In this document: positions 2,786 to 47,822 of the stretch, piece after piece
Layout of the letters: each line of letters opens with the position of its first letter
Numbering within the stretch: the first letter of the stretch is position 1
Assembly (NCBI GenBank): GCA_002632355.1
Contig: NSJJ01000018.1
Span: forward strand, 1 to 63,962
Source of the DNA: Sulfuricella denitrificans
GTDB lineage: Bacteria > Pseudomonadota > Gammaproteobacteria > Burkholderiales > Sulfuricellaceae
Direction of reading: 5' to 3'
Length of the DNA: 63,962 nt
The notes under the pieces: model-generated
What the model was told of the DNA's origin: nothing
The model's input: the letters and a program-made list of their open reading frames with translations, nothing else
The model's database searches: none
Translations under genes and position numbers: made by a program

Positions 2786-3892
2786 TTAAATACGCATTGG
2801 CATTACAACATATTTGAACCTGTCATCTCCGGGAACTGTAATAAGGCAACTGCTGTTTGCATCGCCAAAAGAACAGTCCACTTCTTGTGAGGTGATATTG
2901 TTCAACACATCCAATAAATAAGTTACATTAAACCCAATATCTAACGGCTCTTTGGAATATGAAATTTCCAATTCCTCTTCCGCTTCTTCCTGTTCAGTAT
3001 TGTTGCAGACCACCCGCATGCTATTTTGCGTGAGGACCATTCGAACACCACGAAATTTTTCATTCGACAAAATTGATGCGCGCTGCATGGCATGAAGTAA
3101 AGTCAAACGATTTATTAACACGTGATTTTCATACTGTGAAGGAATGACTTTATTGTAGTCAGGAAATTTTCCTTCAATGACTTTTGATACCAAATTGATG
3201 TTTCCAAAAGAAAAAGTAACTAGGTTTTTACCAACACTGATTTTTACCTCGTCTTCCATATCACTCAGTAATTTAATTAATTCAATGACAGATTTACGAG
3301 GAAGTATGGCTTCCGCAGAGTGATTGATACCATCAACCTCCATACTTGCAAAACTCAATCGATGTCCATCTGTAGCAACTACCTTGATAATTCCTGGTTC
3401 GATTACCAACAGTAAACCATTTAGGTAATATCGAATGTCCTGTTGGGCCATTGCATATTGAACTTGATTAAATAGCTGTTTGAGCGTGGTCTGTGATAGA
3501 GATATTTCAGATATGAGTTCGTCAGCTAATGTAAGTTTTGGAAAATCTTCAGCGGGTAATGTTTGCAGATTGAATTGACTTTTACCCGCAATCAGTTGAA
3601 GCCTGCTGTCTTTACGAACAAAGGATATATCAGCATTTTCAGGAAGAGCCCTGACGATATCTTGAAGCTTCTTGGCAGAAACGGTAATTGCCGCATCAGC
3701 TTTTTCACTGTGGTTTTCAATTCTTGTAGTGATTTGAATTTCAAGATCTGTTGCAACAAAAGCGATATCGTTTTCGTTGATTTGGATTAGTACATTAGAC
3801 AGGATTGGAAGTGTATGGCGTCTTTCTACAATACCTGCGACAGATTGCAAAGGTTTAAGAAATTCTTCCTTATTTATTTTAATTAATAACAT
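2786..3892 (-). CDS. dnaN: DNA polymerase III beta sliding clamp
   Basis: Ring-shaped processivity clamp that tethers DNA polymerase III and other clamp-binding proteins to DNA. The 368 residues agree with the family (about 366) and show the three-fold clamp arrangement. It starts MLLIKINKEEFLKPLQSVAG, typical of DnaN, and ends with the conserved VMPMRI tail that forms part of the partner-binding pocket. It lies 190 bp downstream of dnaA in the same orientation. The intervening DNA is AT-rich and has DnaA-box-like sequences, so dnaN may have its own control as well as read-through from dnaA. Confidence 0.98.
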   Translation of the reverse strand: MLLIKINKEEFLKPLQSVAGIVERRHTLPILSNVLIQINENDIAFVATDLEIQITTRIENHSEKADAAITVSAKKLQDIVRALPENADISFVRKDSRLQLIAGKSQFNLQTLPAEDFPKLTLADELISEISLSQTTLKQLFNQVQYAMAQQDIRYYLNGLLLVIEPGIIKVVATDGHRLSFASMEVDGINHSAEAILPRKSVIELIKLLSDMEDEVKISVGKNLVTFSFGNINLVSKVIEGKFPDYNKVIPSQYENHVLINRLTLLHAMQRASILSNEKFRGVRMVLTQNSMRVVCNNTEQEEAEEELEISYSKEPLDIGFNVTYLLDVLNNITSQEVDCSFGDANSSCLITVPGDDRFKYVVMPMRI

Positions 3893-4082
3893 ATATATAT
3901 CCTGATACTAATAGATAAGTGTGGTCTTGTTTTTGTATAACTCAAAAAAAACATTCCTATACAAATAGATAATATGCTTAACATGTTCTGTATAAAGCAT
4001 AGAACGGGTTGTGAATCGTTTGTGGATGAAATTTTTTGATAGGAAAAATTTTAACCTTATTCACATTTCATACATAAATTGT
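3893..4082. promoter_or_regulatory. dnaA-dnaN intergenic region with DnaA-box-like sites; possible part of oriC
   Basis: This 190-bp AT-rich gap contains TTATTCACA (4057-4065), which fits the TTATNCACA DnaA-box consensus. It also has two weaker sites in opposite orientation: TGTGGATGA (4021-4029, one mismatch) and TGTGAATCG (4010-4018, two mismatches). Several A/T runs could melt. The density is lower than in well-studied origins, so assignment as oriC is tentative. Confidence 0.5.
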
Positions 4083-5420
4083 TCAACTTCTCAGTACCTG
4101 TAGTAACACGCTGATATCGCGCGTTATGGTGGGTTCACTATTTTTTAATTCTTCAATTTTTCTACATGCGTGCATGACTGTTGTATGGTCTCTCCCGCCA
4201 AAGGCATCGCCAATCTCAGGAAAACTCAGATGAGTTAACTCCTTTGCCAGTGACATGGCTATCTGACGAGGCCTCGCAACGTTACGCGTGCGTTTCTTGG
4301 AATACATTTCAGCGACCTTGATTTTGTAATAATCGGCGACTGTTTTTTGAATATTCTCAATTGAAATCTGGCGATTTTGAACAGCGAGTAAATCTTTTAA
4401 CGCTTCCTTGGCTAAATCAAGGGTAATTCCAAGCCCGGTAAAACGTGAATAAGCAATGACCTTTTTCAATGCTCCTTCAAGTTCGCGTACATTTGAACGA
4501 ATTTGTTTGGCAATAAAGAAGGCGACATCGCTTTCCAGGTCAAGACGATCTGCTTCAGCTTTTTTAATCAGGATGGCAACACGCATTTCAAGTTCGGGTG
4601 GTTCTATAGCAACCGTTAAGCCCCAACCAAAACGTGAGATTAATCTATCTTCCATGCCGGATATTTGTTTTGGGTAAGTATCACAGGAAATAATGACTTG
4701 TTTCTTACTTTCAATCAGGGCATTGAATGCATAAAAGAATTCTTCCTGAGTACGTGCTTTGCCACTAAAAAATTGAATATCATCTATCAACAAGAGGTCA
4801 AGAGAATGGTAGTAGCGTTTGAAATCATCAAAAGCCTTATGTTGGTAAGCCCTTACAACGTCTGAAACATAACGTTCTGCGTGAAGGTAGCTAATTTTTG
4901 CATTGCTGTTTTGTTCCTGGATATGGTTGCCAATGGCTTGGATAAGATGCGTTTTCCCAAGGCCGACGCCACCATACACAAATAAAGGGTTATACGCAGT
5001 TCCAGGATTGTCAGCGACTTGAAGTGCTGCCGCTCGTGCAAGTTGATTAGCTTTGCCCGTAACAAAATTGTCAAAAGTGAAAGATGAATTAAGTCCCGTC
5101 TTTTCGTTCCTACCTTGTCGGATGATAGGGGCAGCGACAACGATGGCGGGTGCAGAAGCCATTTTTTTTTCTTTAACGCCCAAATTTTCTGCAACAGAAA
5201 GCGTCAACTGCACAGGATGAGAAAAATGATCAAAACCAATCTGTTCAAATCGACTGAGAAATTTGTCACGGACCCATTGCATGATAAAGCGGTTTGGGGC
5301 CACGATACGCAAAGAATCCGCGCTACCTTCAAAACGCAGCGGTTTGATCCAGTTATTAAATTGTTGCGGGGTAAGCTCTTGCTCGAAGCGGCTCAAACAA
5401 GCTTGCCAGAAAGTTTCCAT
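4083..5420 (-). CDS. dnaA: Chromosomal replication initiator DnaA
   Basis: AAA+ ATPase that binds DnaA boxes and melts the origin. At 445 residues it is slightly shorter than E. coli DnaA, with a short domain II linker. Domain I spans about 1-85. The AAA+ core has Walker A GGVGLGKT (150-157) and Walker B LLIDDIQ (210-216). The C-terminal helix-turn-helix carries the DnaA signature [15 protein letters not shown]. It is transcribed away from rpmH. The putative -35 region of its promoter coincides with a perfect DnaA box, which predicts autoregulation. Confidence 0.98.
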
Positions 5421-35981: not shown

Positions 35982-36821
35982 ATGAATTTCGCGCGTTCTA
36001 TAGCGCTGGTGGTGCTTTATTTCTTTGAAATTCATATCGTTGCGGTGAAGGCGGAACCCCTGAATGACCCTTTTCCCGCTGCAGCAAGCGCCTATTTTAT
36101 CAGCGTGAACGGTACGCCGCTCTGGGCGCACCAGCCTGACATGGCGCTGCCGCCCGCCAGTCTGACCAAGATCATGACAGCGTTGCTGGTGCTGGAACAG
36201 GGTCAGCTGGCACAAGTGGTGCGCGTTTCCGCGGCTGCCACAAGGGAAAGCGGCAGCCGGCTGGGCCTGCGGCCAGGCGAGAACATGCGTGTCGCCGAAC
36301 TGATCGCTGCGACCGTTCTGCAATCGGACAACGATGCCTGCCATGCGCTGGCCGAGCATGTTGCTGTTTCAGAGCCGCGCTTTGTCACGCTCATGAACCG
36401 GCGCGCCTCCGAGCTAGGGTTGCACGATACCCACTTCACCAACGCCTGCGGCCACGATCACCCGGCACATCTTTCCAGTGCGCGCGATCTGGCTCGCCTC
36501 GCCGAATTTACCTTGCGTCGTCCGGAATTCGGACGGCTGGTGGAACTGGCCGAGCTCGAAATACGGGATGCCGACAGACGCCGCAGCTATCTCCTCAGCA
36601 ACAGCAACCAGTTGATAGGCCGATATCCCGGCGCCATCGGGGTAAAGACAGGCTATACCCGGCAAGCCGGTAAATGCCTGATCGCACAGGCGCTGCACGG
36701 GGATAGACGGGTGCTGCTGGTGCTGCTCAATGCGCCCGACCGCTGGTGGTCAGCAACAACCATACTTGACCGGGCTTTTGCCGAAACTTCCACCATGCAG
36801 ACGCCGCATCATGCACCGTGA
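35982..36821 (+). CDS. D-alanyl-D-alanine carboxypeptidase-like S11 serine peptidase
   Basis: Penicillin-binding protein of the S11 class that trims peptidoglycan stem peptides. The 279 residues have a signal peptide and all three active-site motifs: SLTK (60-63), SDN (114-116) and KTG (221-223). It lacks the C-terminal membrane-anchor domain of DacA-type enzymes, so it is a minimal catalytic form similar to PbpG-like endopeptidases. Carboxypeptidase versus endopeptidase cannot be told. Its 3' end overlaps the next gene by 11 nt. Confidence 0.9.
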   Translation: MNFARSIALVVLYFFEIHIVAVKAEPLNDPFPAAASAYFISVNGTPLWAHQPDMALPPASLTKIMTALLVLEQGQLAQVVRVSAAATRESGSRLGLRPGENMRVAELIAATVLQSDNDACHALAEHVAVSEPRFVTLMNRRASELGLHDTHFTNACGHDHPAHLSSARDLARLAEFTLRRPEFGRLVELAELEIRDADRRRSYLLSNSNQLIGRYPGAIGVKTGYTRQAGKCLIAQALHGDRRVLLVLLNAPDRWWSATTILDRAFAETSTMQTPHHAP

Positions 36822-44181: not shown

Positions 44182-45246
44182 ATGACCAAACTGAAAAACG
44201 ACACCTTTCTCCGCGCGCTGCTGCGCCAGCCCACCGAATACACCCCGGTCTGGATGATGCGCCAGGCGGGACGCTACCTGCCCGAATATAACAAGACCCG
44301 GGAGCGTGCCGGAGATTTCATGTCGCTTTGCAAGAACCCTGATCTTGCAACCGAAGTGACCCTGCAGCCGCTGGCGCGCTTCCCGCTCGACGCGGCGATT
44401 CTTTTCTCCGACATTCTTACCATTCCAGACGCTATGGGCCTGGGCCTCTATTTTTCCCAGGGAGAAGGGCCTAAATTCGAACGCCCGCTGCGCGATGAAT
44501 GGGAAATTCGCGATCTCGGCGTACCCGATCCCAATGTCCATCTGCGCTATGTCATGGACGCCGTCAGCCAGATACGCTCGGCGCTGGATGGTTCCGTTCC
44601 CTTGATTGGCTTCTCGGGCAGCCCATGGACGCTGGCCTGCTACATGGTGGAAGGCGGCAGCAGCAGTGACTTCACGCTGATCAAAACCATGCTTTACAGC
44701 CGCCCCGATCTGCTCCACCGCATCCTCGATATCAACGCCCAGGCGGTTACCACCTACCTCAACGCCCAGATCGAAGCCGGTGCGCAGGCGGTAATGATAT
44801 TTGACTCCTGGGGTGGCGCGCTCAGCCATGCGGCTTACCACGAATTTTCGCTGGCTTATATGGAAAAAATCGTCAGCGGCCTGATCCGTGAAAAAGACGG
44901 CGTCAAGATTCCTGCCATCGTATTCACCAAAGGGGGAGGATTGTGGCTGGAAAGCATCGCCAACATTGGTTGCGATGCGGTTGGGCTGGACTGGCCGATC
45001 GATATCGGCGAAGCTCGTCGCCGGGTGGGCGACAAGGTTGCGCTGCAAGGCAACATCGATCCTACGGTGCTATTCTCCAATCCCGAGGTGATTCGCACGG
45101 AAACCGGCAAGATTCTGGCTTCCTATGGTAAGGGTTCCGGCCACGTGTTCAACCTGGGGCATGGCATTTCCCAGTTCACTCCGCCTGACAATGCCGCCGC
45201 GCTGGTCGAAGCAGTGCATGAGCTTAGCCGTCCATACCACAATTAA
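44182..45246 (+). CDS. hemE: Uroporphyrinogen decarboxylase
   Basis: Decarboxylates the four acetate side chains of uroporphyrinogen III to coproporphyrinogen III in heme synthesis. The 354 residues match the family. The N-terminal signature [15 protein letters not shown] contains the substrate-binding arginines, and [16 protein letters not shown] is the second signature. The start is preceded by a hairpin-rich leader. It is 71 bp downstream of gltD, with the DnaA-box cluster on its 3' side. Confidence 0.98.
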
Positions 45247-45623
45247 GCCGATTCAGGGCTGTTTATGAGTCGATTTATGCACAGTATTAAAAAAGTTCCC
45301 TGCGTCAATAGGGAAATCCACTAATTATTCATCGCAATTCGCAAGCCAATGTTTAATAAAGACTTAATAAATGGCCTGCAAATGACCCCGCAGTAAAAAG
45401 TGCTTTCCTGCCAAGTGATTATTTCAATGGATGGCAGTTTATTCACAGAGTTATCCACAGACTCTGTGAATAAGCCGAAATTCCCAGACATGACAGGTGC
45501 TTACGCTGAAAACATAAAGTCAGTCTCAACTCCTGAAGGATGGAAACCAGCAAATCGTCGCTGAAACACATCTGGCTTGAGGGGTCTGCAGCCTCATTAC
45601 TTTCAGGTTAAACTGACGCTCTC
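45247..45623. promoter_or_regulatory. hemE-priA intergenic region with DnaA-box cluster
   Basis: This 377-bp gene-free gap is AT-rich in its first half. It contains four nine-base sites fitting TTATNCACA: TTATGCACA (45275-45283), TTATTCACA (45439-45447), TTATCCACA (45451-45459) and TGTGAATAA (45465-45473, reverse). No open frame or terminator is evident. The remaining 150 bp before priA show nothing clear. Confidence 0.75.
45439..45473. repeat. Palindromic triple DnaA-box array
   Basis: TTATTCACAGAGT (45439-45451) and ACTCTGTGAATAA (45461-45473) are perfect 13-bp inverted arms around a 9-nt centre. Each arm holds a DnaA box, and the perfect box TTATCCACA (45451-45459) occupies the centre. 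The first two boxes are spaced 12 bp start to start, about one helical turn. Confidence 0.85.
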
Positions 45624-47822
45624 ATGCCCCATATCCTGAAGATTGCTCTCGATATTCCCCTCGACACCCTGTTTGATTACAGGGCAGGCGAGTTAAAAAA
45701 GGAAGATGTCGGCCTTAGGGTGCTGGTCTCTTTCGGGCGTAGAAAAATGGTTGGACTGATTACCGAAATTTCCGGCCACTCCGAGCTTTCTTCAGAGCAA
45801 ATCAAGCCGGTATTGAAAGTGTTCCGGGATACGCCGGCGCTTACGCCCGATATCCTTAAATTGCTGCGGTTTTGCGCCGATTACTATCATCATCCACTGG
45901 GCGAAGTGATTTTTACCGCACTGCCGCAACGCCTGCGCTCCGACCGCGCGGCGTCCTTGCCCAGCCAGATCAGCTACGTTCTGAACGAAGCCGCGCCACA
46001 ACTGGATGAACTGCCTCCGCGCGCTATCGTAAAACGCAAGTTGCTCGCGCAACTGGCCCAGGGCTCACCCGTTACGCGCGAAACCCTGCTCGCACTCTCG
46101 CCGAGCGCAAACAAACAACTCGGGGAAATGCTCGCAAAGGGATGGATCGCCGAGCGGCAGGAAACCTGCCTGAAAAACTTTGCACGAGCCGCATCGGACA
46201 CGATTCCGGAGCCGCTACCCACACTGACCCCGGAACAGGCTGCGGTCATAGACAGCTGCGCCTCTGAACCTTCTGGGTTTTCGGTCTCGCTGCTACTGGG
46301 CATCACCGGAAGCGGCAAAACCGAGGTCTATTTGCGACTGACCGCCAGCCAGCTTGAACAAGGTCGGCAGGTTCTGGTGCTGGTACCTGAAATTAATCTC
46401 ACTCCGCAACTGGAAGCCCGCTTCCAGACGCGCTTTCCAGAACTTACCGTGGTCAGCCTGCACAGCAGTCTCAGCGACAGCGAACGCTTGCACCACTGGC
46501 TCCTGGCGCAATCAGGGCAAGCCCGAGTCGTTCTTGGAACACGGCTTTCGGTGTTTACCCCGTTACCGGAACTTGGACTTATCATCGTCGACGAGGAGCA
46601 TGACAGCTCGTTCAAACAGCAAGACGGATTGCGCTATGGTGCACGCGATATGGCAGTGACACGTGCCAAGCAGAACAACATTCCGATCCTTCTGGGCTCC
46701 GCCACCCCGTCCCTGGAAAGCTACCACAATGCACTGGCCGGACGTTACCACCTGCTACGCCTGACCCGTCGTGCTGTTGAAGACGCGCAACTGCCTGCCA
46801 TCCGTTGCGTGGATATGCGCAACGAAAAGCCGCAGGATGGGCTTTCTGCCACACTGCTCAGGGCGCTGGCCAGGAATCTCGAACTCGGCCATCAAAGTCT
46901 GGTGTTCATCAACCGGCGTGGCTTCGCCCCGGTACTGATGTGCAACCAGTGCGGCTGGCTGGCGCCCTGCCTGCGTTGTGCCAGCCGTCTGGTGGTACAC
47001 CTGCGCGAGCGGCGCCTGCGCTGCCACCATTGTGGACATGAAGAACGCATTCCGCTCAACTGTCCGGGTTGCGGTAATCTGGACCTGGCTCCCTTGGGGC
47101 TGGGCACGCAGCGCCTCGAAGATGCACTGTCGCAACATTTCCCCGCCGCCCGCATCCTGCGCATCGACCGGGACAGCACACGACGCAAGCACGCACTTCG
47201 CGATATGCTGCAGGAAGTCCATGAGGAACGCGTGGATATTTTGGTGGGTACACAAATCCTTGCCAAAGGGCATGATTTCAAGCGCCTCACCCTGGTTGGC
47301 GCGCTCAATGTGGATGGTGCGTTGTACAGTGCCGATTTCCGCGCAGCCGAGCGCCTTTTCGCCCAGCTGATGCAGGTCGCCGGAAGGGCCGGGCGCGCAG
47401 CCGAAGCCGGAACCGTGCTGATCCAGACGCAGTTCCCCGATCACCCCCTGTTCGAGGCCTTGCGCCTCCAGGACTATGAAGCTTTTGCTACCACGCAGCT
47501 GGCAGAGCGCAAGCAGGCCGGTTTTCCGCCCTTTTGCCACCAGGCCCTGTTGCGTGCAGAGGCCTCGCAACTGGAAACAGCACTGTCCTTCCTGCGTCAG
47601 GCAAAAAAAATAGCCGTACCGATTTCTGCTTCGATCACGCTTTATGATCCGGTGCCCGCCTCCATGGCCCGCCTGGCTGGGCGGGAACGCGCCCAGTTAC
47701 TGGTGCAGGCGGATGCGCGCCGTGATTTGCAGCGCTTTCTTCATCACTGGAATGCGGCTCTCGCGGAGCTCAAGGTGCGTCAGGTACGCTGGTCGCTGGA
47801 CGTGGATCCGCTCGATTTCTAG
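45624..47822 (+). CDS. priA: Primosomal helicase PriA
   Basis: 3'-5' helicase that reloads the replisome at stalled forks. The 732 residues have the N-terminal DNA-binding domain and Walker A GITGSGKTE (226-234). They also have DEEH (motif II) and the zinc-binding cysteine array (CNQCGWLAPCLRC and CHHCGHEE...CPGCG), which is unique to PriA. The C-terminal helicase motifs include QVAGRAGRA. It is directly downstream of the DnaA-box cluster, an interesting pairing for a replication-restart protein. Confidence 0.97.
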   Translation: MPHILKIALDIPLDTLFDYRAGELKKEDVGLRVLVSFGRRKMVGLITEISGHSELSSEQIKPVLKVFRDTPALTPDILKLLRFCADYYHHPLGEVIFTALPQRLRSDRAASLPSQISYVLNEAAPQLDELPPRAIVKRKLLAQLAQGSPVTRETLLALSPSANKQLGEMLAKGWIAERQETCLKNFARAASDTIPEPLPTLTPEQAAVIDSCASEPSGFSVSLLLGITGSGKTEVYLRLTASQLEQGRQVLVLVPEINLTPQLEARFQTRFPELTVVSLHSSLSDSERLHHWLLAQSGQARVVLGTRLSVFTPLPELGLIIVDEEHDSSFKQQDGLRYGARDMAVTRAKQNNIPILLGSATPSLESYHNALAGRYHLLRLTRRAVEDAQLPAIRCVDMRNEKPQDGLSATLLRALARNLELGHQSLVFINRRGFAPVLMCNQCGWLAPCLRCASRLVVHLRERRLRCHHCGHEERIPLNCPGCGNLDLAPLGLGTQRLEDALSQHFPAARILRIDRDSTRRKHALRDMLQEVHEERVDILVGTQILAKGHDFKRLTLVGALNVDGALYSADFRAAERLFAQLMQVAGRAGRAAEAGTVLIQTQFPDHPLFEALRLQDYEAFATTQLAERKQAGFPPFCHQALLRAEASQLETALSFLRQAKKIAVPISASITLYDPVPASMARLAGRERAQLLVQADARRDLQRFLHHWNAALAELKVRQVRWSLDVDPLDF

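Follow-up and report, generated by a model that had tools for sequence, protein, structure and literature searches.

A candidate DARS-type core of DnaA boxes upstream of priA in Sulfuricella denitrificans

The gap between hemE and priA in Sulfuricella denitrificans carries three DnaA boxes in the orientation and at the spacing seen in E. coli DARS1 and DARS2. By analogy with those sites, we think it fairly probable that the array is a betaproteobacterial DARS core that promotes release of ADP from DnaA, and perhaps it also controls priA. The window, i.e., the whole stretch of 63,962 nucleotides that was analyzed, contains hemE (44182..45246, plus strand, TIGR01464), the gap itself (45247-45623), and the gene for the replication restart helicase PriA (45624..47822, plus strand; NCBIfam NF004067 at 992.9 bits against a cut-off of 763, and TIGR00595), followed by argS, which was also confirmed by a curated model. 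The linkage to the upstream neighbor hemE is kept in only part of the relatives. The dnaA gene (4083..5420, minus strand, TIGR00362) marks the origin locus by GC skew.

A first-pass annotation had placed three TTATNCACA boxes at 45439, 45451, and 45465 and a fourth at 45275 in an AT-rich gap, and both statements are borne out: all four boxes are exact, and the gap has 42.4% G+C against 54.2% in the whole window. Box III (45439-45447, plus strand, TTATTCACA) lies head-to-tail with box II (45451-45459, plus strand, TTATCCACA, followed by G) at a distance of 3 bp, and box II lies head-to-head with box I (45465-45473, minus strand, TTATTCACA) at 5 bp. The outlying fourth box (45275-45283, plus strand, TTATGCACA) is found on the box III side and points in the same direction as boxes II and III. 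Geometry and conservation define boxes I-II-III, at 45439..45473, as the candidate core, whose minus strand shows the box order and orientations of DARS1 and DARS2. The same 35 bp, TTATTCACAGAGT-TATCCACAG-ACTCTGTGAATAA, had been described as a perfect palindrome; the two 13-bp arms are indeed perfect, but 9 bases lie between them, and the stretch is strictly an interrupted inverted repeat and no continuous palindrome.

The number of boxes in the window is ordinary, with seven copies of TTWTNCACA against a shuffle mean of 4.19 and at least seven in 15 of 100 shuffles, but their clustering is not. Three TTATNCACA boxes within 40 bp occurred in none of 300 simulated windows and none of 20,000 simulated gaps (first-order Markov), and the triple-box cluster is not due to chance. 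The 35-mer occurs once in the 3.09-Mb genome when up to three mismatches are allowed.

Read on the minus strand, the boxes of the window array start at 0 (+), 14 (-), and 26 (-). Identical relative starts were found in E. coli K-12 in the bioD-uvrB gap (boxes at 608 (+), 622 (-), and 634 (-); core L053:608-642) and in the rppH-mutH gap (2136 (+), 2150 (-), and 2162 (-); core L054:2136-2170), with at most one mismatch in each box. From their gene neighborhoods, we take the former core to be DARS1 and the latter to be DARS2. The identification rests further on the map, since DARS1 is placed at 17.5 min (PMC5010248) and the bioD-uvrB core at 813.1 kb corresponds to 17.5 min by calculation, and on the published description of a DARS core (PMC5742627), in which three DnaA boxes are set at a spacing shared by the two sites and box I is inverted relative to the other two. 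In the window array, too, box I is opposite to II and III, and the I-II and II-III gaps are 5 and 3 bp in all three cores.

Relative to the pattern TTATNCACANNNTTATCCACAGNNNNTGTGNATAA, DARS1 differs at two positions and DARS2 at three. DARS1 shares an identical box II (TTATCCACAG) with the window array, but its boxes I and III are off-consensus, whereas those of the window are consensus. DARS1 is found upstream of uvrB and, given the position that we assume for E. coli oriC, about two-thirds of the way to the terminus, whereas the window array lies at priA near the origin. DARS2 and the window have the core geometry in common, and both have a further consensus box on the box III side. However, the nearest exact consensus box of DARS2 (L054:2347) points in the opposite direction, whereas the fourth box of the window points the same way as II and III, and the gene neighborhoods differ. 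The DARS2 core also has an IHF/Fis regulatory flank, whereas no strict IHF consensus was found in 45201-45700, so a DARS2-like IHF switch is unsupported. The datA locus had been named as an analogue as well and, like the window array, is an origin-proximal cluster of DnaA boxes outside the origin. Its essential boxes all point in one direction and it needs an IHF site, according to parts of PMC5742627, while in the window box I is reversed and a strict IHF consensus is lacking between 45201 and 45700; datA identity was rejected. Of the proposed analogues oriC, DARS, and datA, it is thus DARS that matches exactly in orientation and spacing.

The DnaA protein encoded in the window is 58% identical to E. 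coli DnaA, and the alignment shows K178, D269, R281, R285, L290, and R334 to be invariant, as are the domain IV residues R399, R407, Q408, H434, and T435. The AID-1 residue R227 is not conserved. D269 is reported to be needed for DARS1 and L290 for DARS2 (in parts of PMC5742627); their presence here bears on the DnaA protein and not on the site. Hda and IHF-alpha are present above curated cut-offs, and a Fis homologue is present with 41% identity.

In nine of nine priA regions of the genus, an exact TTATNCACA box occurs 164-168 bp before the core start in the same direction, as the sole exact box of its direction in the 250 bp upstream. Because it is kept at this distance throughout, the fourth box probably belongs to the element. 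The DNA between it and the core is mostly variable, apart from two partly conserved blocks on the plus strand, GCGTCAAT (45302..45309; CGTCAA in six of nine regions) and, beside box III, GCCAAGTGATTA (45410..45421; GSCAAGYRATTA in seven of nine). A box kept at so constant a distance could point to a looped complex.

The preference for this geometry was assessed via a search with strict boxes in which both gaps could vary from 0 to 20 bp, giving 441 geometries. In the order, 17 matches were obtained in 15 of 399 genomes, and all but one (in G296) had gaps of 3 and 5 bp. Across the phylum, 22 matches occurred in 17 of 397 genomes, with gaps 3 and 5 in six (5 of 21 without the window), 3 and 3 in four, 3 and 14 in two, 2 and 3 in two, and different gaps in the rest. 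Gaps of 3 and 5 are thus very strongly preferred within the order; a preference also exists across the phylum with strict boxes, though a far weaker one. Triple-box arrays with gaps 3 and 3 were seen in G649, G475, G413, and G421, from families outside the class, and could be origin modules or variant cores.

With the geometry fixed, 21 of 399 genomes of the order matched a loose box pattern, 21 of 22 genomes of the family matched at up to three mismatches, and 111 of 397 genomes of the phylum matched at up to two, mostly with one or two copies and with up to five. Of these 111, 12 come from the order (out of 39, and counting the window), another 54 from the rest of the class, and 45 from other classes, 32 of which belong to a single family (f86). 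Five families of other classes (f85, f92, f95, f98, and f102) had no core in the phylum search at up to two mismatches; absence in any clade is not established, because strict-box pattern searches miss degenerate cores. Kinship among the sampled genomes inflates the counts. Reversed patterns, used as a control, gave zero matches in the rows of the fixed-geometry searches of order, family, and phylum. As a positive control, the phylum search recovered sites resembling DARS1 in family f58, which is presumably enteric, and in 10 of 10 loci read there the core lies 365-387 bp on the 5' side of uvrB, as does E. coli DARS1. Among the listed matches box II is the least variable box, a comparison in which the family and phylum search patterns favor box II.

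An exact-match scan of named genomes gave at least 119 stretches, and the 80 matches listed by name include Nitrosomonas, Gallionellaceae, Methylomonas, Methylobacter, Competibacteraceae, Marinicella, and one Magnetococcales record. One exact core (L193) stands on a contig labeled Phycisphaerales; since the frames beside it cluster with those of Competibacter-type loci, the contig may have been binned wrongly.

Flanks of 600 bp were read at 232 sites with up to three mismatches, a set which contains repeats where loci overlap and leaves out some loci. The recurrence of cores at priA is clear. PriA homologues, 32-100% identical to that of the window, flank 29 sites in 26 loci, and the core lies on the 5' side of priA in 28; the remaining one (L210) overlaps an over-extended reading frame, and no core was found 3' of priA. 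The orientation is the same in all 29, with box I nearest priA, at -7 to 526 bp from the priA frame. Among the 119 exact stretches obtained from named genomes, 16 are at priA. It had been proposed that absence of the array in all relatives would speak against it, and within the genus the core is upstream of priA in eight of eight genomes with 0-4 mismatches. Thirteen other genomes of the family with priA had no priA core at up to seven mismatches; a fourteenth (G402), outside those 13, gave only a priA-like helicase. E. coli priA was also tried as a locus, and its region has no core at up to eight mismatches.

The hemE gene, which the first-pass annotation had noted as a neighbor of oriC in alphaproteobacteria such as Caulobacter, is less often nearby than priA. 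HemE was encountered near 17 sites, compared with 29 for PriA, always with the core on its 3' side and in 16 cases in the orientation of the window; the reversed case (L046) lacks an adjacent priA. The idea of a hemE-specific element was abandoned, as many copies occur at priA without hemE, and the priA-linked copies of gammaproteobacteria have no HemE within the stretch read. The linkage to hemE looks incidental.

Two further classes of placement were found. XseA and a TolQ/ExbB-like gene flank cores in 23 rows each, some repeated, with XseA 5'-facing in 22 (exception L049). Cores on the 3' side of hrpA account for 12 rows, 11 of them from the family and covering all eight genomes of the genus. 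S. denitrificans itself has three cores, i.e., that at priA, one at hrpA (C4:129129-129163, two mismatches), and one at xseA (C33:84961-84995, three mismatches). In the complete congener (G145, 3,826,324 bases, dnaA at 101), the cores are at 3,780,435, 739,561, and 1,184,274. By calculation, its hrpA core is at about 39% of the arm and its xseA core at about 62%, against 41% for DARS2 and 66% for DARS1 with the oriC position assumed above for E. coli. A conserved distance from the origin is not claimed, as the xseA core is at about 60% of the arm in G107 and at 17% in G015. A rule by which cores accompany repair genes (uvrB, mutH, xseA, priA) was also dropped, since many of the listed sites flank other genes, among them proS-, argS-, or kinase-like ones, names which were assigned by eye.

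At priA, the outer boxes tend to covary between species of the genus, with TTATTCACA, TTACTCACA, or TTGCCCACA in both arms. Arm symmetry at the priA cores of the genus amounts to 72 of 81 positions, a value reached in 201 of 20,000 shuffled pairings, which is a hint only, given the kinship of the nine sequences. No symmetry excess of this kind was seen at the cores of hrpA and xseA. Homogenization of the arms or a role of the dyad in binding are possible reasons for the covarying outer boxes.

An AT-rich gap with a cluster of DnaA boxes is also what an origin of replication might look like, and the array had been suggested as the true chromosomal origin. In the window, however, cumulative GC skew is lowest at 3418, beside dnaA, which lies about 40 kb from the array. 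Given the limited length of the window and a skew that becomes negative once more beyond about 36 kb, the complete congener was checked as well; in the 400 kb around its dnaA (101-1429), the lowest point falls within dnaA, at +854, and the array, at -45,889, is 46 kb away. The array thus has no skew minimum, and the main chromosomal origin is ruled out there. GC skew would be blind to a rarely used second origin, and taken together an origin of either sort at the array is extremely improbable. Four near-consensus DnaA boxes occur within 300 bp at 3801-4100, and the AT-rich dnaA-dnaN gap (3893-4082) is likely oriC. The cumulative skew of the window peaks at 36,291 and then declines to the window end, a local reversal despite the origin at dnaA.

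The array could instead be a promoter or operator through which DnaA represses or activates priA depending on its level or nucleotide state, with the geometry being that of a strong cooperative site. The 29 priA-linked sites, in one orientation and never 3' of the gene across widely diverged PriA proteins, and the share of priA among the named-genome matches listed are in line with such control. Constant orientation is, however, also expected from common descent, the distance to the priA frame varies widely, and the core geometry is found at other genes and 3' of hrpA. A consensus scan of 45200-45700 found no sigma-70-like promoter, which says little given a chance mean of 1.0. We consider this explanation rather unlikely. 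It is improbable that the boxes are a near-origin titration site soaking up free DnaA after initiation, for which consensus boxes about 40 kb from dnaA would be suitable; passages of PMC12371093 describe a high density of DnaA boxes near oriC in E. coli. Titration needs boxes and not one geometry, yet the order strongly prefers one of 441, and unlike those E. coli boxes the window core has its three boxes in one fixed arrangement and counterparts remote from the origin, among them two of the three cores of the congener.

The inverted repeat might also act as an RNA hairpin, i.e., an attenuator or terminator between hemE and priA to which DnaA is irrelevant. The folding energy of the stretch (-25.2 kcal/mol, z -6.21) and the arm symmetry at priA within the genus point in that direction, but no T run follows the array, the terminator scan gave none at the array, and a riboswitch or other known RNA was rejected, since a search of 45000-45800 against Rfam gave no match at E values up to 1. 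Moreover, the triple-box geometry is found at priA, hrpA, and xseA alike, whereas the symmetry excess is absent at the latter two. A hairpin function is very improbable.

For the DARS reading that we prefer, the mode of action would follow E. coli, where ADP-DnaA forms a head-to-head dimer on boxes I and II and gives up its ADP, after which the apo-DnaA departs and binds ATP (PMC5742627, PMC8682772). By analogy, ADP-DnaA would occupy all three boxes of the window array, ADP would be loosened in the head-to-head pair at boxes I and II, and the departing apo-DnaA would take up ATP and regain competence to initiate at the origin next to dnaA. The DNA beyond box III, where the fourth box keeps its distance of about 165 bp, may serve as a regulatory flank, and the hrpA and xseA cores may share the work with the priA core. 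Unlike DARS1 and DARS2 of E. coli, a core about 40 kb from dnaA would be replicated shortly after initiation, with an early doubling of its dose. In E. coli, origin concentration rises when DARS1 is moved very close to oriC (PMC5010248), and a DARS near the origin is therefore not predicted by the E. coli model. This placement suggests weak activity, a timing flank, or a second job at priA.

In the literature consulted, DARS function is described for E. coli. Its conservation is reported for seven E. coli-proximal species (in parts of PMC8682772), and the range is given as gammaproteobacteria (PMC4245941) or as beta- or gammaproteobacteria (the review PMC5742627). No report of DARS function in betaproteobacteria or at priA was found among titles and abstract starts of the open-licence literature. 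The exact geometry before priA, here and in distant relatives, suggests that the DARS switch is older and more widespread than the work in E. coli implies. We raise tentatively, as a somewhat doubtful extension, that the priA-linked core is an ancient DARS of beta- and gammaproteobacteria, with DARS cores in other classes, which both recharges DnaA and makes priA sensitive to DnaA, tying initiation to restart, and that E. coli kept only copies elsewhere, DARS1 and DARS2. Should these sites prove functional, the regeneration of ATP-DnaA could be tested in many groups, and the chromosomal place that such sites require is opened to comparative study, with one here only about 40 kb from dnaA.

Two other arrangements were seen in the flanks. 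Three loci (L138, L219, and L278) have two tandem DARS-type cores upstream of one priA, about 360-465 bp apart. In L227, L235, and L271, a DARS-type core lies on the 5' side of genes judged argS-like by eye, and no adjacent priA was seen; the core is possibly a remnant of the priA locus.
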